Of a DNA stretch of 64,000 nt, positions 19,461 to 59,900 are shown piece by piece. The translations under genes were made by a program, and so were the position numbers. This DNA comes from Benincasa hispida (taxonomy: Eukaryota; Streptophyta; Magnoliopsida; Cucurbitales; Cucurbitaceae): the NCBI RefSeq assembly GCF_009727055.1, contig NC_052350.1, positions 40,775,993-40,839,992 of the forward strand. The letters run 5' to 3'. The stretch's first letter is position 1; each line of letters starts with the position of its first letter. A model generated the notes under the pieces. That model did no database searches and was not told the origin of the DNA. It saw nothing but the letters and a program-made list of their open reading frames with translations.

Positions 19461-19639
19461 ATGTAGGCCTTCTTCTTCTTCTTATTATTTTTTACGTTTT
19501 CAGGATCTTAGAATTCTATCGATATGGTTGTTGTATTTGTGTTCTTTTCAATCTTTTTTTTTTAATTTTTATTATTCTTTGTTTTTGATTTTTTGTTGTG
19601 CAGATAGATAGTTTTTTGTGTCAATATGTATGGATGTGA

Positions 19640-20945
19640 ACATTTCTCTAAAGGAATCCCACAATGGAAGCGTTCTCGTGTGAGATCGCATTGCATCACG
19701 CAATTCGATTTTTACAATAACAAAATCGTTGTACTAGACTTAATAGATAAACATGTAAATTAACATGCTATTGGAGAAAGAATTAGAATGGTTCTTACCT
19801 TTGTAGATTCCTCAAGTGCCACGAACAATCCTCTCCAAGGTTCTAACGAACGGATCTCCAAACGGTCTTGATCAGGAACAACTCCTTGAGCGATCTCGAA
19901 CACTACCACGAGAGTTACCTCGTTATTCTTTGAGATTTCAATAGAGGGATATGTGGTATCCAACTATTGGGAGAGGGAGAGGAGAATAAGGTTTTGGAGA
20001 GTAGGGAGACTTAGAGAAAATTATGCACAATAACAATATGGAGTTGTGTATTGTTAGAGTTACTCTGCTTTTGAGAATTGTGTATTCAATGTATTCAAAA
20101 GGCTATGGAGAGGTATTTATATAGAGAAGGGCCAAGCTCTTTCCTAATATATTTCTTTTTCTATAATTAATTAAATAATATTTATTTAATTAATTAGTCA
20201 ATATAATTAAATAACCAATATTTAATTTGCACAATTAAATAACACTTATTTAATTAATTTGCACAATAATTAAATAACACTAAACCCAATTTAATGTATA
20301 TATTTAATTATCATATACATCCCATGTATATGTGCAAAATCTTTCTATTAGTTTAATTCTTTGTGAATCTAATTCACTTGAATTTTGATTAATTTGAAAT
20401 CATATTCAAATATTACTTTTCAATTTAATTATTAAATCATATCCACAATTAAATTATAATATAATCACATTAATATATAGTTCCCTCAAATTAATTTGAC
20501 CAATTCAAATTATCTCTCTTAAGTTATCCTTTAGTGAGCTAACGAGGGGACCCTGGGGGACCTGGTGGACCTGTAGATCAGAAGCTCCAATGATATGAGA
20601 TTAATTGGTTAAACTCATTAACCAAGTTAATCAATATTCATTAACTATGGGTACTTCCATTAAAGACCCAACAGCTGCACTCTTCTCACTACAAATATAT
20701 TTCTGTGTCCACGTATATAGACCAATACCAGCAAGTTAGTCCTTCACGAGTGTTCGTAACTCTCAACTGGGTCAAATTACCAATTTTACCCTTGGGTTAC
20801 CTTTGGCTTCTTAAGTACCAGTACTCCTCTAATGAACAACTTGTTTATGATCCAACCATAAACATAAATCCCTCTTGGGCAATAAGAAGGTAGGGCCCTT
20901 TGTTCACATCCCAGAGACACCACTAGGGTTGATCAGAAAAGTAGG
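19640..20945 (-). mobile_element. Copia-type LTR unit A
   Basis: The minus strand carries a TATA box (TATATAAATA at 20114-20123) with a downstream leader that ends around GATCTCACACGAGAACGCTT (19665-19690). Upstream, toward 20940, it shares with unit B a run of blocks (GTGAACAAAGGGCCC, CATTAGAGGA, GGTAAAA-GGT, GGAGCTTCTGATCTACAGG). The TATA-distal part is matched in inverted orientation at 34640-35135. Exact ends could not be placed: no clean TG..CA pair with a target duplication was found. Confidence 0.65.
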
Positions 20946-22597
20946 CATGCGCAGCGGAATTAAGGATCAATTTTACTCTAATTGCATAAATTAAACATAC
21001 AACCCTAAATTAGTTAATTAGGGTTTTTTAGAAACATTATCTTTGAAGCTCCCAAAACTCGTCTATCTCCGCTTGAACACGAACCGGACAACCACTAGCT
21101 GATCTACTATTCTCTGGACTCAGAACTGGGTTGTGGGACCCGATGGATGAAGAACCCGAGATAGAGAAAAAGAGATGGAAATAGTAGAGTGAAATTTGGG
21201 TTGAGTTTGAATTTTTTCAGCCCAATTTTTAAAAACCAATTTTGCAAAATTTCCAAAAATGACAAGCTCATATTTATAGAAAAGGGTCATGCAAAATTGC
21301 ATGAAATAACTTCATAAAAACCCAATACCTAGAATCCACTATCGTGGGCTTAATGTCTCCACTATAAGCCAACACCTAACCCACTATTTTGTTAGTGGAA
21401 TTATCCAACAAAAGTTTGGATTTTCCCACTAACTTTAGTCAAAGGGCAAAATAGTCATTTGGTCAAAGTCAAACTTTGACCAAAAAGTAAACATTTTGAC
21501 TTTTTATGATTTTTTTTTCTGTTGACTAATTTTGACCTCCCGAGCATGTATCCGCATTCATTTTCTCGAAATTCAAATCACATTTGAATATAAAGTCGGT
21601 CAAAGTTTGACTTTTCAAAATCAAAAGTCAACTCTTTGACTTTTTACATCTTTGACCATTTCCATCATTTTCGAGCTTCCGAATATGAACGTATTCATAT
21701 TCTTGATATTTAAATCACATTTAAATATTAAAGTTGTATCTCTAAACTAAAAAACCGACACTATATCACATATGCTTGTCGATTTCTCTTTCTTCACCTA
21801 ATTTGAACAATTCGAATTATTCTATCATACTGTTCTAAGTTTACTCCATATGAGCTAGTAGGGGAATCTAATGGACCTATAGATCATGGGCTCCAACGAT
21901 CCGAGATTAGCTGGCTAAACTCTTTAGATGGACCTAATCAACATTCGTCAAATCACGGGTCATTCTACTATAGTCCCGTAGTTGCACTCCCATCACTATA
22001 GATATATTTGTGTCCATATGATATAACTATGATTAGTAAGCTAATCCTTCACAGATTGTTCGTAATCTCGGCTGGGTCATAAAAACCGTTTTACCCCCAA
22101 GACTACATCTTATTCTTTAAGTTCCACTGATCCTCTAATGAACAATTGGTTTAAGGTTCAACCTATAAACCGAACCCCTATCGAGCCAATGAGAGAGTGG
22201 GGCCCCTTGTTCAAGACCTGGATTCAGTACTAAAGGGAACAACCTATCTACTATCTCTATAACAGGTAGGAGTGAATTCCGTCTTGCACCCTATGTTTCT
22301 AGCTATCCATCTGATCTTACCCATGAAATGGGAGGCTTATTGGGCCAGCGATAATGAGCTTCCCTCACCTATGCAGATCTAAGGATAATTCCGAGTGAAC
22401 AGAAGTTCATAGTTAGCTCAGGATTAAGATTAAGTTACCTAGGTCATCAATTAACTAAATAGTCAGTTTTATACATTAAACGGCATTTAGAATGTAAAAG
22501 TGACTATTTCATGGTTCAGTCTTATGTAAACTCTTTACATAGGATGCCCCCATTTTCATGTCTCCACATGAACGGTTTAGGATCACATCGTTTGCTC
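20946..22597 (-). mobile_element. Copia-type LTR unit B
   Basis: Same arrangement as unit A: TATA box on the minus strand (TATAAATA, 21271-21278), preceded by GAACAAGGGGCCCCAC, CATTAGAGGATCAGTGG and GGAGCCCATGATCTATAGG, and ending near TTAATTCCGCTGCGCATGCC (20944-20962). I recognise the far end (GTTTACATAAGACTGAACCATG region, 22500-22590) as LTR sequence of cucurbit Copia elements, from memory only. It is cut at 22597 by a sequencing adapter, so its junction with the Copia body is not trustworthy. Confidence 0.6.
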
Positions 22598-22635
22598 CTG
22601 TCTCTTATACACATCTAGATGTGTATAAGAGACAG
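22598..22635. other. Illumina Nextera mate-pair junction adapter (assembly contaminant)
   Basis: The 19-base Tn5 mosaic end CTGTCTCTTATACACATCT (22598-22616) is followed directly by its exact reverse complement AGATGTGTATAAGAGACAG (22617-22635). This perfect 38-bp palindrome is the circularisation junction used in Nextera mate-pair libraries. It is not plant sequence; the two flanks are probably ends of one circularised fragment rather than neighbours. Confidence 0.98.
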
Positions 22636-25600
22636 GGGTAGATGCATATTTGGAACAACTTCCAAATCTGTCAAGAATTTTCTCAGCCATACTGCTTCTT
22701 TTGCTGCTTGCAAGCAGTTACGTATTCAGCTTCCATTGTGGAGTCAGCTATACAGGTCTGTTTTATGCTTCTCCACACTACTGCTCCTCCGTTAAGAGTG
22801 AACACTGATCCAGATGTAGAATTTCTAGCATCTTTATCAGTTTTGAAATCAAAGTCAGTGTATCCAGTAAGGATCAGATCCTTAGCACTATACACGAGCA
22901 TGTAGTCCCTAGTTCTCCTAAGATACTTTAAGATGTTCTTAATGGCAGTTCAATGATCACGTCCAAGATTAGACCGGTATCTACTGATGATCCCTACTGA
23001 GAAGCATATGTTAGGTCTAGTACATAATATTGTATACATCAGGCTTTCAATTGCAGAGGCATAGGGAATATTTCTCATATTCTCAACTTCTTGAGGTGTC
23101 TTAGGACATTGTCCTTTTGACAGATGAATTCCATGTCTGAAAGGCAACAGTCCCTTTTTGGAATTCTGCATTTTATATCTAGACAATATTTTGTCTATAT
23201 AAGATGCTTGAGACATGGCTAGTGTTCTATTCTTGCGATTCCGAATAATTTGGATCCCAAGAATATACTGCGCATTTCCTAAATCTTTCATTTGAAATTG
23301 TGTATCTAGCCATTGTTTGACGTCAGTAAGATATCCTACATCATTCTCAATGAGTAGAATATCATCAACATATAAAGCTAAGAATGCTATAGTAGAATTG
23401 ATGATCTTCTTGTAAACACAAGGCTCATCAACATTCTGTTCAAAGCCATAAGATTTGATCGCAGTATTAAACCTTATATTCTAGGATCTAGAAGCTTGTT
23501 TCAACCCATAAATGGATTTTTGAAGCTTATAAACTTTTGTTCTTAACCCTGTGCAATAAACCCCTCTGGTTGAGCCATATAGATACTCTCTTCAAGATCG
23601 TCATTTAAAAAGGCTGTCTTGACATCCATCTGCCAAATTTCATAGTCATAAAAGGTGACAATGGATAAGAGTATTCTTATTAACTTTAACATGGGAACAG
23701 GAGAGAAAGTTTCTTCATAGTCCACTCCCTCTCTCTGGGTATAACCCTTTGCCACAAGTCGAGCCTTAAAAGTCTGTACTTTACCGACTTCGTCTCGTTT
23801 TCTCTTGTAGATCCACTTACAACCAATTGGTTTTACATCATTTGGTTGATCTACAAGTTTCCAGATAGAATTGAAGTACATAGACTCCATTTCGAGGTCC
23901 ATGGCTTTGACCCATTGATCACGGTCCACATCTTTCATCGCCTGTTTATAGGTCGATGGATCCTCTATGCCATCATCAGGTATGACTACTTGTGTTTCTG
24001 TTAAACCCAAGAAACGATCAGGCTGATGAACAACCCTCCCACTACATCGAGGCATTCTCAACTCTTGAGAAGGATGTGACTGACCAAATGTACTAGTTTT
24101 ATCTACTACTTTAGTAGATGAACTAGCTCTATCTGTAGCGTCTTTTGAAATTTCTTTCAACACTATTTTACTGCTTGGTTGATGATTTCTAATGTGGTCT
24201 TCCTTTAGGAATGTGGCATTCATTGATACAAATACCTTGTTTTCTTGAGGATGATAAAACAGACTACCCCTTGTTTCCTTTGAATAACCTATAAATAGGC
24301 ATGACTTTGAACGATGTTCCAATTTCTTGGGATTTTGTACCAACACATGTGTTGGGCAACTCCAAATTCTAAAGTGATGTAAACTACTTTTATGCCCTTT
24401 CCATAGCTCATAAGGTGTTTCTAAAACACTTTTAGAGGGAACGTTGTTCAAAATATGGACAACAGATTCAAGTGCATATCCCTAAAAGGAATCAGGCAAT
24501 TGAGCATAGCTCATCATAGAGCGAACCATATCTAATAAGGTTCGGTTTCTTCTTTCTGATACACCATTTTACTGAGGCGTACTAGGTGTAGAGAGTTGTG
24601 ACTGGATCTCGTTTTCTATCAAATAGTCTTGGAATTGTATGTCCATATACTCTCCACTTCGATCTGATCGAACTGTCTTTATTGTTTTACCTAATTCATT
24701 CTCAACTTTAGCCTTATATTCTTTGAACTTTTCAAGAGAATCAGACTTGTTATAAAGCAGGTAAACATGACCATACCTTGAATAATCATCAATAAAACTG
24801 ATGAAATATTCATACTCACCTCGAGCCTTGACATTCATTGGTCCACAAAGGTACGAATGTACGAGCTCTAAGAGTACTTCGGCTCTGAGACCTTTTCCAG
24901 TAAAAAAATCTCTTGGTCATCTTTCCTATCAAGACAGGATTCACATGGAGGTAAAAAGTTATCTTCTAACTGACTTAAAAATCCACTCTTGACCAATCTC
25001 CCAATCCTATTGAGATTTATGTGACCAATTCTTAGGTGCCATAAATAGGCGTTGGAAGAAACCTTTTGTTTTTTATTCTGAGTTTCTAATGTTCTAAACA
25101 TTTCAGTATTTAAAACAAAATTTGCTCTAGTTGGTCTTAACTTATATAAGTTTTCTTCAAGTGTAGCAGAATAAATTTGAATACCTTTACAAAAAATGAA
25201 CGCTTCATTTATATTAAAAGATATTATATATAATTATTCTATAATACAAGTGATAGATATCAAATTTCTCTTCATAAGAGGTGCATACAAAACATTTTTA
25301 AGTACTAGATATCTATCTTCAAAAAACAACTTCAGATCTCCCACTGCTTCAGCTGAGACAACCTCTTCTGTTCCAACTCTGAGGATTATCTCACCTTCTT
25401 CAAGATTTTTCCAAGAACTAGTTTCCTGAAACGAGAAACAAATATGATTAGTGGCTCCTGAATTTCGTATCTAGGTTGAAGTATCATATTCCAGTAAACA
25501 TGTTTCAACGACCTGTAAATCATATTTACCTTGTGCCATTTTCTCAGCTTTATTCTCTACAAGGTACTTTGGGTAATTTCTCTTCTAATGCCTGTTTTGG

Positions 25601-26374
25601 TTACAGTGGAAACATTTTTCTTTATCTGTATCCTTCTTTCCCTTTTTTATCTGGGGAGCCTACCCTTTTCCCTTCTTTTTCATTTGAGCTTTAGAGGGTC
25701 CAGCTTTAGTTTTAGAGGACGATCCTCTTATAAATTTTTTCTCAGTGGTAGCAACATTTTCTTCCACTTCCTTCTCCTTGCCTAAAGTAAGGTTTTAGAA
25801 TCGCTGGAGCTCATTAAGAAAGGGTAGTGAGGTTAAATTCTATCTTATTTAAAGACGCATTTGTCTCAAAAGGTATAAAACTCTTTGAAAGAGATTGTAA
25901 GATAAAGCTAACCTGGTTAGCCTCATCAATGGGTCCGTCATTTACTTCAGCGATATTGAAGTACATCATCATGTCCATGACATGTTCTCTAACAGAGGTC
26001 CCCTTCTTCATCCGCTTCGTGTAAATGTGCTTAATTGCCTCGTGTCTAAGGGACCATGATGGTTGCCCAAACATTTCTCTTAATGAATCTATTATCTCTT
26101 TAGTCGTAGCTAAGGATTCATGTTTCTTTTCCAAAACATCAGACATGCTGGCAAGAATGTAAACACGTGCCTTTTCATTGGCTTTGACCCATCGATCGTA
26201 TGCTTCCTGAACAATTCGGTTAGCATTTAAGGCTGGGGCTTGAAAACATTCCTCAGTTAAGACAAATCTTAAATCGTCAACTACCAGTATTGTGTTTAGA
26301 TTTGATTTCCATGCCGAATAATTATCGTTGTTTAGTTTCTCGGAAGCTAAGAGTTGAATTATCGAGCTATTCAT
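22636..26374 (-). pseudogene. Ty1/Copia gag-pol polyprotein, near full length but broken
   Basis: In order on the minus strand: gag (26374-25814, 186 codons, SEKLNNDNYSAWKSNLNTIL, UBN2-type); decayed zinc-knuckle and protease (25800-25330); pre-integrase (25101-24990, LRIGHINLNRIGRL); integrase core (24838-24569, FIDDYSRYGHVYLL and RSDRSGEYM); integrase tail and reverse-transcriptase start (24451-23543, KWIYKRKRDEVGK, DVKTAFLNDDLEESIYM); RT active site YVDD at 23361-23372; RT tail (23291-22950); RNase H (22901-22683, STSGSVFTLNGGAVVWRS, TMEAEYV). Internal stops and shifts split it into about eight frames. The last part of RNase H and the 3' end are missing at the adapter. The same family supplies 1-789, 29264-30960 and 57764-58593. 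Confidence 0.9.
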
Positions 26375-27690
26375 GCTGAAAAGATAAACATATCCTTTTC
26401 AATAAAAAAAATTAATCTTTTAAATCCAATCAAGTTTAGCAAAAAAAACTAATAATGTACCCTTCATTATTATATTTTGCAACGATATTTCAAAAGTTTA
26501 GAGTAATCTCCACCGAAGGGTAGTCGATTATTCCTCTTTTGAACCAAGACAATCTTGACTAGATGCTAACCCCAGAATAACTCTTTATTCCTATAGAACT
26601 TTAGTTATCGCTACTTTGGTCAAGAATATACAAACATCTTAGTAATTCTTGTAAGCAACCTTCCATTTTTGGATTTCAGAAACCAGAATCAACATGCTCC
26701 CGAAAGTGGAAAGTCAATATGAAAACTGATCTAAGAGAGCCTATCCAGATTTGGAGTTCGCGGTGTTCTGAATCCTATAATACAACCCTCTGAAGGGAAA
26801 GGTCGCTCCAGGGCAGACATGCAGGCGCATTATAGGAATCTCACGGTGCGACATAATGGAAGAGATCGTGGGATACGTTGTTACATACCCCTCACCCATT
26901 TACCATGAACTACTTCCCCTATTCACCTTGATATTGATCCATGCAAACACTCTCCGAAGGGAGTCCGCTCCTAAGCATGACCCAAAGCCCTGCATGGACC
27001 TCACGATGTGAACTCTTAGGGACGTTAGAGCTAAAAGTACGCTACTTCTCTCTAGTTGAAGTGTTCTATAACGATTTAGGGTATAAAAAAATACTTAGAG
27101 ATATATTTCAGCTAAATTAAACATATCCTAAGTCTAGATGATAGATCTACTAGATTTTAACCTATGATGTCTAGGTGATAAACAAATTTTATTACCTCAC
27201 ATCTCTCATGAATGCTCATTAAAACTAGGATTATTTGACTTAGACGACATTTTGATCTCCAGGTAGGAGGTGTTCCGTAAATCGTCATCTTAAGAACTCC
27301 CAACCTTAGACAAGATCTCCCCAGGTAAGTAAATAACTCTTTGTTTAACAAGTAATCGACCTATTCTAACTCTTTAGAAAAGGTGATTGAAATTGCACCA
27401 ATTTAATTCTAGGTGAGTATGCAACTTTTCCTTTGTTATAGATTTTAAAGTCTAGGTTATTTTATAAGAATTATAAAATAAAATATAACCATTATAACCC
27501 TAGAATCATACATCTATAACATACATACATACTTGATAATCATGCTTTGATATAACACTTTATATTAAAAAAAAACTTAACATGTATACTATATACATTA
27601 TAACAATTATAACATATATTAAATGTATGTACATGTTTACCTATGGTGGGATTTTAAATCTATATGGCATACTATATGCACAACAAGATT
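26375..27690 (-). mobile_element. Copia 5' leader/LTR-proximal region, copy b
   Basis: Noncoding leader upstream of the gag start at 26374, collinear with copies a (790-2300) and c. The repeated module (CTTGATATTGATCC, GCAAACACTCTCCGAAGGGA, CTCACGATGTGAACTC) appears twice, near 26760-26850 and 26930-27015. The shared end ACCTATGGTGGGATTTTAAA lies at 27641. A junction to unrelated LTR sequence falls somewhere between 27690 and 27760. Confidence 0.7.
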
Positions 27691-31063: not shown

Positions 31064-33653
31064 CGCCCTCAGACCACCTTCTCAGTCTGGGAGAGGGATG
31101 CGACTGTAACAATTATCAACCCTTGAGCTGACACTTACTGCCTAATGATTCTTGCGGAATAACTCTGATACCATACTATAACTTATACACAGCGGAATGA
31201 TTAAGTTGAGGAGATAAACTATAACGGATTAAGTAGGCCCATCTTTTATTACAACAGTGATAAACGTTTATACAACTTAAGGACTTAACAACAAAGTTTA
31301 CAACAACAACCGTAGAAACCCTCTGGAAATGTAATTGGGGCACGTGGCAGACCTTGACCTTAGCAAGACCTTGGGACTCCTCATCTTCCACTACCTGAGG
31401 GGGGAGGGGGGNGGGGGGGGGGATTAAGAAAACATTTTGAAGGATGTGAGCTACTAAGGCCAGTAAGTGGTTTTTTTAAGATGAAATTCACTTTGAAAAT
31501 CATCATTTTTGGGAAATCAATCACATGCCAACACCCGCATTATAACTCATGCATAGTCAAAGATATAATCATGCAACCAGTAATCTTTATCTCAAAAGCT
31601 ACATGTAGCATGCATATCATATCATCAATCAATACAATCATCTATGGAAACCTTCCTATGACCCCAATTCCCGCCAATGTGCACATCGATCATTTTATTT
31701 ATCCCGCTAGTCATGCCTAGGTACTTGACCATATTTCCCACCGGTCGTCACCGACTATTATTTCCCGCCGACCATTATTTCCCACCAAGCACCTTTTGTT
31801 AAGCATACTAACCACATCCCGGGCATAATCTCAGTTTCCACAGTCACACACAAACAATATCATGGCAATCATCCTATCATCAAAAGCATGTATTTTGTAT
31901 CTACAGATGCATATATTCCAATATCAGAGTATAAAGCTAAGTGAATACTCATAATATGCATTTACTATCAATACTGTATAAACACACAATATTCTTTATT
32001 TATCAAAGCAACATAACACTCACGATATATTGGAAGTATAACACTATAACACTCACACTATGTGTTAATGATCAAAGCTATAACACTCACACTATGTGTT
32101 AATTATCAAAGCTATAACACTCACCTTAATTGCTTAGGAGCCTTTCTAATAGTTCCCTTTTCTACCTTGGGCTCCCTTTTTACCCCTAGAATCCATATCC
32201 AAATTACATCTTAGATTACTCATAGTTATAAATCTTATTTTGAGATACTTACTTCTACCAAACTATTCTAAAATGTCTCAAGAAGCTTACCATAAAATCT
32301 TAGCTCATAAGTCTTCATGGTTTAGCCGGAATCATCCAAACATCAAGACTGGCCCAGCTTACCCGATAGCTCGACCCCTCTTTCTTTTTCTCATTCTCCA
32401 GCCCCATTCCTTAGAGCTTCTTCTCTGGAAGCCTCCCCATGAAAACTAGACTCTCTTATCTTTCATATGGCTTTGAAATTACATCAAACGCTCGAGTAGA
32501 TTGAGAGATCTCCTCATCTTAAATTGATGCATTCTCCTCCACCCTCACTGTCCAATGCACTCTACTCTCCCCCATTTTTTACGAATTTTATGATTTGTGA
32601 TTTGAAAATGAAATCCCAAAGGCTTTATTTATAGGCGTCCAAACCTCCTATGGTGTTGACACCACCTACTTGCCTGCATGGCCAAATGTTTAATCCTCCC
32701 TTTATCAACGTAAGTTGACTTCACCTTGGTTCAATGTGTTCTTCCCAAACGCATCCAACACAATTTCTTAGGGTTTAAGAATTTCTCTTAATCGGAAACC
32801 TAAATTTTAATTGACGTTTTCCCTTACGTCTTCAAGCTTTGTTTTTATTCAATTTAGGGTTTTCAATGCATAATCTATAAGATCGTGGCCAAATTCAACA
32901 TATAAATGCCCGGCCATTCGATGCACAGGCGGTTTCCTTCGATCGCGTGGGCGTGACGTTCGAATGAGGCGTTCAGGCTGCTCTCGCTCTCTCCCACTTT
33001 TTCACTGGTCTTGCTCCTCTCCGCTCTCGCTCTCTCCCACTTTCTCGCTCACAATCTCGCTCTCTCCACTCTCGCTCTTTTTAACTTTCTCACTCAAACT
33101 CTCGCTTTCTCCACTCTCGCTCTCTCCAACTTCCTCGCTCAAAATCTCGCTCTTCTCCAATCTCGCTTTCTCTCCCATTCTCTCGCTCAAATCAATCTCG
33201 CTCTCTCTCATTCTCGCTCAAATCAATCTCTCGCTGGTGTCGCTCTCACCACTCTCATTCTTTCCAATCTCGTTAGCTACTGTGAATATGGTTTATCTCC
33301 GTGCAACTTCCACACGAATTTTTCCAAATAATTTTCTATATTTTCCTTAGTTCTTCAATCCTTTCTTCACTATTCAAGATTTAAGTCTTCAATGTTTTCT
33401 CTTCTTTTTATCCTTTTAGGGTCCTCCTTACTCGTACTCCAGGATCAAATCTGGTTATCGTAACTATAATACCTAACCATTATAGTTTACATTCACTCTT
33501 ACTAATTGTTGATCCACAGAAGGTGACAATTATTACAGTTATTATGACAATTGTAAAATTATTAGATTATTTACGAAATATAGGATTTAACTTTCTCCTA
33601 ATTAACCCCTTAATCACTTACTTAAGTAGAAAAATGGAGATCTGGGTTTCACA
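31064..33653 (-). mobile_element. Solo LTR (2,590 bp) with perfect 5-bp target duplication
   Basis: The insertion begins TGTCACACCCC and ends GGGTTTCACA on the plus strand, giving TG..CA ends, and is flanked by CAAAT at 31059-31063 and 33654-33658. It interrupts a Copia leader whose two halves join collinearly when it is removed. On the minus strand a TATA box (TATAAATA, 32626-32633) gives the orientation. No gag or pol frame is present, so I read it as a solo LTR. It contains a poly-G tract with an N (31412), a TTTCCC-CC-GACCAT-type repeat near 31735-31785 and a CTCGCTCTC minisatellite (32975-33240). CTCTGATACCA at 31163-31173, the usual tRNA-Met primer-site complement, lies about 100 bp inside the end. 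Confidence 0.8.
32975..33240. repeat. CTCGCTCTCTCC minisatellite
   Basis: Repeats built on CTCGCTCTCTCC-ACTTTCTCGCTCA fill about 265 bp of the solo LTR, with a loose period of 20-50 bp. Because the unit avoids stops, frames stay open on both strands (69 codons minus, 106 and 128 plus). These are compositional, not genes. Confidence 0.85.
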
Positions 33654-34450: not shown

Positions 34451-35135
34451 GTTTTAATCAATTCATAATTTAATTAAATCAAAATCCAATATCTCAAATT
34501 GAATTAAAATTGGAATTTACTTTTGAATTTATAATTAATTAAACATATTTAATTAATTAATTAATTTAATATTAAATATTAAATTAATCTCACATCTAAT
34601 TTTCAATATGAATCTTATTCATTTAATTAATATTTAAATCATTATTGAAATACTCGCAGTTTGTAAAGTTAAACACATTCTATTATCGATAAAGATGTTA
34701 TTCAACACAATTCTCATTACAATGACACTTTGACAATACACAACTCCTGTAGAATTTTCTCTAAGCCATAAATCCTCTCTACTCTCCAAAACCTTATTCT
34801 CCTCTCCCTCTCCCAATAGTTGGATACCACCTATCCTTCTATTGGAATCCTAGAGAATAACAAGGTAACTCTTGTGGTAATGTTCGACATCGCTCAAGGA
34901 ATTATTCGTGATCAAGACCTTTTGGAGGTCCATTCGTTGGAATCTTAGAGAGGATTGTTCGTGGCACTTGGGGAATATACAAAGGTAAGAATCATTCTAC
35001 TTTCCCCAATAGCATGCTAGTTTTTGGGTTTATTTTATTCCGTCTAGTATAACGATTTTATTTATTGTAACAATTGTATAGCGGGATGCAAGGCGATCTC
35101 ACACGAGAAACGCTTTTCAAGATTTGATCCCTACA
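34451..35135 (+). mobile_element. Fragment of Copia LTR unit A, inverted
   Basis: 34640-35135 matches the reverse complement of about 19670-20060: CTCCAAAACCTTATTCTCCT, GGATACCAC, AACAAGGTAACTCTTG, GTGGCACTTG, AGCATGCTA and GGCGATCTCACACGAGAA. The AT-rich part at 34451-34640 (AATTAATT runs) is probably its upstream half. It ends at 35135 where a Gypsy LTR starts. Confidence 0.65.
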
Positions 35136-58593: not shown

Positions 58594-59900
58594 TGATATC
58601 TGGTAGAAATGCAAGCTATTGTAGCCTTTTACTTAGAATTATGAGGGCTAACAAGCAGAATATGTGTTGATAATAATAAAAATTTATGTGAAAAATGAGC
58701 TTGCGACGATCAGCACTAAAAATACTTACTAACCTTATATCATGTGTTATACGGTGTCAAAATATCTATTTTTGTAGCTATCGCAGGAATCAATCGTAGG
58801 CGCTGAAGGCAGACCATCACAAAGTTGATTGTATGCGTTGATGACAGACCATCGCAAGGTTGATCGCATGCGTTCATCGCATGGATGTTGCGGCCACAGG
58901 GTAATAACCATGATAGAAGGGTGATTACAAGGTGGGTGGACTGTGTTGGTGCTTCAAAAAAACAAGCATGAACGCATACCTTAGGAGTATCAAAAGGATA
59001 AGNGTAATAACCATGATAGAAGGGTGATCACAAGGTGGGTGGAATGCGTTGGTACTTCAAAAAAACAAGCATGAACGCATACCTTAGGAGTATCAAAAGG
59101 ATAAGATGATGTTGACATTTCACCTACTGCGCCGAAAGTGACAATGATCCAGAACGGGACCACCAATGCTGTCGGCGCTTAAGCTCTATAAATAAAGCTT
59201 CAGAGCCCAAATTCAAGGCATCTGAGCTTCTGCCTTAAGGTAGATCCTTGTGATCACAGATGAGAGCATGAGCAAGACATTCTTTGAGAGTTATTCATTC
59301 CTTCAACCCATTCTGAGTGACGATTGGAGCTTTATCGGAGATAGAGCTCAAGAGAGACTACTCCACCGCCCATCTATGGCACCACCGGTAGCCTTGACGT
59401 ACATATGATGGAAGCAAGAGATTTCCTACATCTAGCCCTCCATCTCTCTTCTTATCTCTATATTGTATTACATTTTGGCTTAAGACATTAATACATTTTG
59501 TAATAAATGCATCTCTTTATTTCCTTCGACACCATCTTCATTATCTTGTTCTTTATCATCCCTTACTTTCATTGCAACGAACTAAGTAAAGATTACAAGT
59601 GTTATCGCATACTCGATCATGCAACATAGAGATATGAAGCATGTAGCAAACCACCGAGAGGTATGCGTTCCGCGAGAATAGTGAGTTAATTCTCTTTGCT
59701 TAGTGTAAGGCTATAGCAACGCTTGTCTATGAGCTGATTAGCCATGACTAACTACCCGAGAAGGTAAGTAGTGGAACTCACTAAGCGAAGTAAGTAGTGT
59801 TCCTAAAGATAGGAATATTCTTATGCTCAACATAACCATGCATTATAGAGATATCAGCATGTGGTTGACTACCGAGAGGTATGCGACGCATTAGTGTGCC
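58594..59900 (+). mobile_element. LTR-like element of unknown family, interrupted by a SIRE-type element
   Basis: It begins TGATATCTGGTAGAAATGCA inside the Copia fragment (after GCATAAC) and runs to 59900 with CGCATGCG/GCGATG-rich sequence, a TATA-like CTATAAATAAAGC near 59187 and TTGTAATAAATGCATC near 59500. This layout and the start resemble the reverse of 45179-46854. No coding frame is seen. Its other end must lie beyond the SIRE-type element, outside the window. Confidence 0.55.
58901..59105. repeat. Near-identical 102-bp copies separated by a single N (assembly join)
   Basis: 58901-59002 and 59004-59105 both begin GTAATAACCATGATAGAAGG and end CAAAAGGATAAG, with about four base differences. 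The one-base gap at 59003 lies exactly between them. Most likely this is an overlap of two contigs or alleles that was not merged, though a true tandem copy is possible. Confidence 0.9.

Follow-up and report, generated by a model that had tools for sequence, protein, structure and literature searches.

Mate-Pair Circularization and Its Junction Adapters

The closest described counterparts of the sequence considered here are adapters used to circularize long DNA fragments for sequencing. In the Nextera mate-pair procedure, as outlined in the description of NextClip, fragments bear a 19 bp adaptor at each end, the two adaptors are joined on circularization, and the product is recognized with a 38-base query; inserts of up to 12 kb are given for such libraries (PMC3928519). 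The mosaic end itself is presented as a hybrid of the natural ends of Tn5 that is used in vitro (PMC4248319, PMC5765368). A second protocol employs a ring adapter for circularizing fragments of approximately 4 kb and prints the identical 38 letters; in the passages of that paper that deal with the adapter, it is ligated to sonicated DNA and not placed by a transposase (PMC7357533). Among cucurbits, the Momordica charantia project describes the use of Nextera mate pairs of 2–8 kb (PMC5381343), and that of Cucurbita pepo of 10 and 20 kb (PMC5978595).

The 38-Base Site in Benincasa hispida

The window, that is, the whole stretch of DNA analyzed, comprises 64 kb of a Benincasa hispida chromosome. 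Positions 22598–22635 consist of the exact 19-base Tn5 mosaic end on the plus strand (22598–22616) followed by its exact reverse complement (22617–22635, minus strand), with no mismatch in either arm of the palindrome. The site thus has in common with a Nextera mate-pair junction two 19-base adaptors, each the reverse complement of the other, in the circularization-joined form of 38 bases, but it differs in that it stands in finished sequence rather than in a read, and in that the second flank copy expected from local circularization is absent from the window. A perfect palindrome of the mosaic end had been reported here by an earlier sequence-only reading; it is exact, and with up to two mismatches allowed the 38-mer has no other match in the 64 kb. 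None appeared in 100 dinucleotide-shuffled versions of the window either, and outside 22598–22635 the longest fragments of the mosaic end were two 10-mers, with no 11-mer. Searches of the window for adapters of other kits or loxP-type linkers, using query sequences from general knowledge, returned no match, and nothing was found in Rfam at gathering thresholds.

The same 38 bases recur widely in deposited sequences. Among prokaryote contigs, at least 120 stretches contain them, and these belong to 19 assemblies of distant groups (counted by eye among the matches listed), and 14 of these 19 carry the 38-mer more than once (likewise by eye among the matches listed). Seven stretches of viral contigs and five plasmid records also contain it, while megablast searches of complete E. 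coli genomes and of phage records with the 38-mer found none. A sequence that turns up in organisms of no close kinship and is concentrated in particular assemblies fits an artefact of library construction. The sequence also persists in records titled complete, namely CP017948.1 (L101) and all four of the five plasmid records that were opened; these and the other loci gathered (L001–L127 and L128–L131) point to a wider contamination problem.

Exact sequence identity together with recurrence in unrelated assemblies identifies the 38 bases, with very little room for doubt, as an untrimmed mate-pair junction adapter, the in vitro product of circularizing a long fragment tagged with mosaic ends, and it is nearly certain that they are an artefact of library or assembly rather than biology. 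The previous identification of a mate-pair circularization junction is therefore upheld by the exact 38-mer, the published adapter descriptions and the recurrence across assemblies. Its attribution to Nextera holds in part: Nextera is the most probable kit, with at least one alternative, since the ring-adapter protocol, in the text that describes it, ligates the same 38-mer, and by those bases alone the two cannot be told apart (PMC7357533). That the 38 bases are truly part of the plant DNA, for example as a remnant in a line engineered by in vitro transposition, is extremely improbable. Nothing speaks for it other than the presence of the sequence, whereas a real Tn5 insertion gives a 9-base target duplication and none surrounds the 38-mer (CGTTTGCTC versus GGGTAGATG); moreover, recurrence clumps by assembly, and the mosaic end is, as far as the sources cited above describe it, a laboratory hybrid of natural Tn5 ends. 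Across the other 38-mer junctions tested, a 9-base match spanned the junction in one of 151.

Retroelement Sequences Flanking the Adapter

To the right of the adapter lie the pieces of a Copia retrotransposon on the minus strand, with gag, integrase, reverse transcriptase and RNase H in the order characteristic of such elements. Gag occupies 25814–26398 (Retrotran_gag_2), followed in the direction of transcription by integrase and gag-pre-integrase pieces at 24569–25233 (rve at 24569–24916 and gag_pre-integrs at 24868–25233), by a reverse transcriptase and SH3-like region, also in pieces, at 22950–24481 (RVT_2 and SH3_retrovirus in 22950–23480 and 23543–24481), and by a frameshifted RNase H region at 22636–22949 that was recognized from protein matches to relatives. 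The set of domains and their order on one strand are those of a Copia LTR retrotransposon; the differences are that the reading frames are broken, that the RNase H ends at the adapter, and that neither a second LTR nor a primer-binding site was found. For the latter, no match within two mismatches was present near 26.4–27 kb, the motif being taken from general knowledge.

The end of the RNase H is the most informative part of this flank. Positions 22683–22949 gave no Pfam hit but yielded 445 protein matches at E ≤ 0.001, of which the best 120 were considered; the top match, also the best among named proteins, is a gag/pol protein of Cucumis melo with 81% identity, which suggests cucurbit DNA. 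The domain continues in another frame as far as AVWLRKFLTDLEVVPNMHLP, ending in VPNMHLP, the final codon of which abuts the adapter. Relatives P0099 and P0062 read on from this point as ITLYCDNSGAV, and P0101 and P0108 do so with close variants, extending 38 and 37 residues beyond the adapter point, respectively. Pattern matching located the local RNase H motif in 42 of the best 120 of the 445 relatives, and 30 of these 42 extend past the adapter point, as judged by eye within the same 120. To go by these alignments, the element loses the remainder of its RNase H exactly at the adapter. Comparison of the RNase H piece with viral contigs, and of the reverse transcriptase piece with genome contigs, gave pattern matches and no confirmed relative.

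The left flank contains two LTR-like units of the same, minus-strand orientation. Unit 1 lies at 19639–20925 and was recognized by similarity and a TATA-like match; unit 2, at 20940–22597 with an approximate lower boundary, runs into the adapter and is a putative LTR on the strength of its likeness to unit 1 and a TATA-like match. The two are 67% alike over 549 bp (21703–22232 versus 20385–20925). Each has a long TATA-like match on the minus strand, ending near 20121 and 21278, respectively, and a shorter match in unit 2, CTATAAA, is on the plus strand at 22163. No LTR ends were found in either unit, no near-identical second LTR copy was found, including to the right of gag, and no direct pair of LTRs brackets the Copia coding part within the window. 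The left flank is likely to be LTR sequence, as had been suggested: the two like units and their minus-strand TATA-like matches bear this out, while the LTR ends and second copy that would complete the assignment were not found. A further pair of LTR-like stretches, 19668–20317 and 34475–35115, are in opposite orientation and 74% alike over 664 aligned columns, rising to 81% over the better 427 columns.

Copies of either flank were sought on the opposite side of the junction, a test that bears on whether a circle arose from this locus and not on the identity of the adapter. The 41,365 bp rightwards of the junction contain no exact match to any 16-mer of the left flank's terminal 2,000 bp, and the 22,597 bp leftwards contain none to any 14-mer of the right flank's initial 4,000 bp; nor was any mutual overlap of the two flanks found. 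More sensitive searches to the right of the junction returned a distant similarity of 63% over 186 bp at 34470–34652 and the similarity to unit 1 at 34475–35115 in opposite orientation; to the left, they returned a gag relative with 41% identity at 439–765. Upstream of gag, at 26.4–28 kb, no likeness to the LTR-like left flank was found.

Circularization Geometry at Other Loci

When a fragment is circularized, its right flank lies upstream of its left flank in the genome, on the same strand. This rule was examined at other loci carrying the 38-mer, using the 110 fetched loci that hold exactly one copy; 17 of the 127 fetched were dropped as multi-adapter loci, because the same flank copy is counted repeatedly there. 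Flanks were too short at six of the 110, no second flank copy was found at 74, and 30 had one. The second copy was at least 300 bp away at 14 loci, 12 of which have same-strand copies solely on the side predicted by circularization (one of the 12, L006, has an additional reverse-strand copy of the other flank), and the remaining two have it on the opposite side (L104) or show a mixture (L110). A single Enterococcus assembly accounts for eight of these 14 long-range loci, and the cases are therefore not independent. Where the second copy was closer than 300 bp, 13 loci agree with the predicted side and three disagree, many of these short-range copies being overlaps of the two flanks; 77 of 151 junctions lack any flank overlap. 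Counted per flank over all 154 junctions, copies at 300 bp or more fell on the predicted side 27 times and on the other 10 times.

Three of the five plasmid records were compared with relatives, L129 and H2 being left out. At two of these three junctions, the listed relatives keep both flanks together and in the order seen. For the plasmid junction L130, the flanks span 1,176 bp in six of seven listed relatives and 1,198 bp in the seventh; for the second, they span 1,245–1,254 bp in all seven listed, each with a query of 1,238 bases. At the third, an IS element occupies the site and obscures the comparison. A junction adapter can therefore separate flanks that are correctly ordered. The geometric rule put forward in the sequence-only reading is sound in general, as the 12 of 14 long-range loci indicate (with the one Enterococcus assembly supplying eight of the 14), but swapped flanks are not the sole outcome.

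Other Features of the Window

The only clear host gene noticed in the window is a serine-glyoxylate aminotransferase-like gene on the plus strand at approximately 14.6–17.4 kb, with at least five exons. Among the eight entries compared, its identity is highest, at 91.3%, to Carya illinoinensis, followed by 90.6% to Gossypium stocksii, 90.4% to Cucurbita argyrosperma and 89.5% to Cucumis sativus, in a database clustered at 90% identity in which nearer members may be hidden; these values do not single out one species. The Cucurbita entry is itself 77–85% identical to the other seven, so that its 90.4% faintly hints at a relationship with the window.

Two single N positions occur within the window. 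That at 59003 lies where two 103-bp copies, 95% similar to each other, meet (58898–59000 and 59001–59103); they look like overlapping contig ends left unmerged. The other, at 31412, is within a G-rich run at 31399–31422 made up of six Gs, an A, six Gs, the N and ten Gs; such a run is odd in sequence of 33.5% G+C and may be another artefact of the assembly or the reads.

Origin of the Join

The join at 22598–22635 is unsafe, and its flanks should not count as true neighbors. They are not simple neighbors within an intact element, because the RNase H breaks off at the adapter and its relatives go on past that point; the earlier contentions that a Copia RNase H is cut mid-domain here and that the flanks are not truly joined both find support in this. 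As to how the two came together, we give somewhat better than an even chance to an untrimmed junction adapter in a read from another repeat copy having bridged a gap in a Copia element, the order of the flanks being perhaps right and the sequence between them missing. On this view, a gap in a multi-copy Copia element would have been filled during assembly with a read that crossed a junction; LTR sequence would have been matched on the left of that read and RNase H on its right, so that it linked two contigs. The read would most likely have come from another copy of the repeat, since the window offers no further exact copy of either flank. The order of LTR-like sequence and then RNase H may be right, as the 3′ LTR of a minus-strand element would likewise follow immediately after its RNase H, and the two of three plasmid junctions with correctly ordered flanks provide a precedent. 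The rest of the RNase H, and anything between it and the LTR-like sequence, would then be missing, with the adapter in their place. Against this reading, LTR ends, a second LTR and a primer-binding site were not found, which leaves the assignment of the left flank to this element putative; the long-range loci elsewhere are swapped rather than correctly ordered in 12 of 14 cases, and the shorter TATA-like match of unit 2 is on the plus strand.

The main competing explanation, to which we would assign perhaps half that weight, is a wholly false or chimeric join, in which each flank comes from a repeat copy or place of its own and the two adjoin in no order. Repeats crowd the region, neither flank is copied exactly across the junction, and chimeras made up about 40% of some zucchini mate-pair reads, a figure that the source gives for pre-Nextera libraries of 3 and 7 kb (PMC5978595). 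It would, however, make it a coincidence that the sequence immediately following RNase H is LTR-like and has the matching orientation. The model of the sequence-only reading, that a single local fragment was circularized and that pol really lies a few kb to the left of the LTR with the order swapped, is rather unlikely at this locus, even though it is the geometry expected from circularization and that observed at 12 of the 14 informative loci elsewhere. The right flank was not seen upstream of the left flank within insert size in the window; exact copies of the flanks are missing from the expected sides (41,365 bp rightwards and 22,597 bp leftwards), and the 26.4–28 kb region upstream of gag is unlike the LTR-like left flank, so that a swapped order would need a further misjoin; a scaffold break that would allow one is possible at 31412, where a lone N stands 8.8 kb rightwards of the junction. 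This part of the earlier account is not borne out. Finally, the flanks could be truly adjacent through an old truncation of the element, with the adapter merely inserted between them, as the adjacency of the flanks in relatives of the plasmid junction L130 would allow; an old truncation at the exact adapter base would be needed in a domain that otherwise continues in relatives, and this explanation is very improbable. The bridging of a gap by a read from another repeat copy is thus the account we prefer.

Implications for the Assembly

The caution urged earlier over annotation across 22.6 kb is justified: retroelement annotation, the dating of insertions and structural-variant calls that cross this point would be unreliable, and the assembly should be broken or re-closed there. 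The result is of use to the curators of this assembly and is no biological discovery. Beyond this chromosome, the 38-mer provides a simple marker for suspect joins in deposited assemblies, and the geometry of the flanks can sometimes be read from the loci that carry it.
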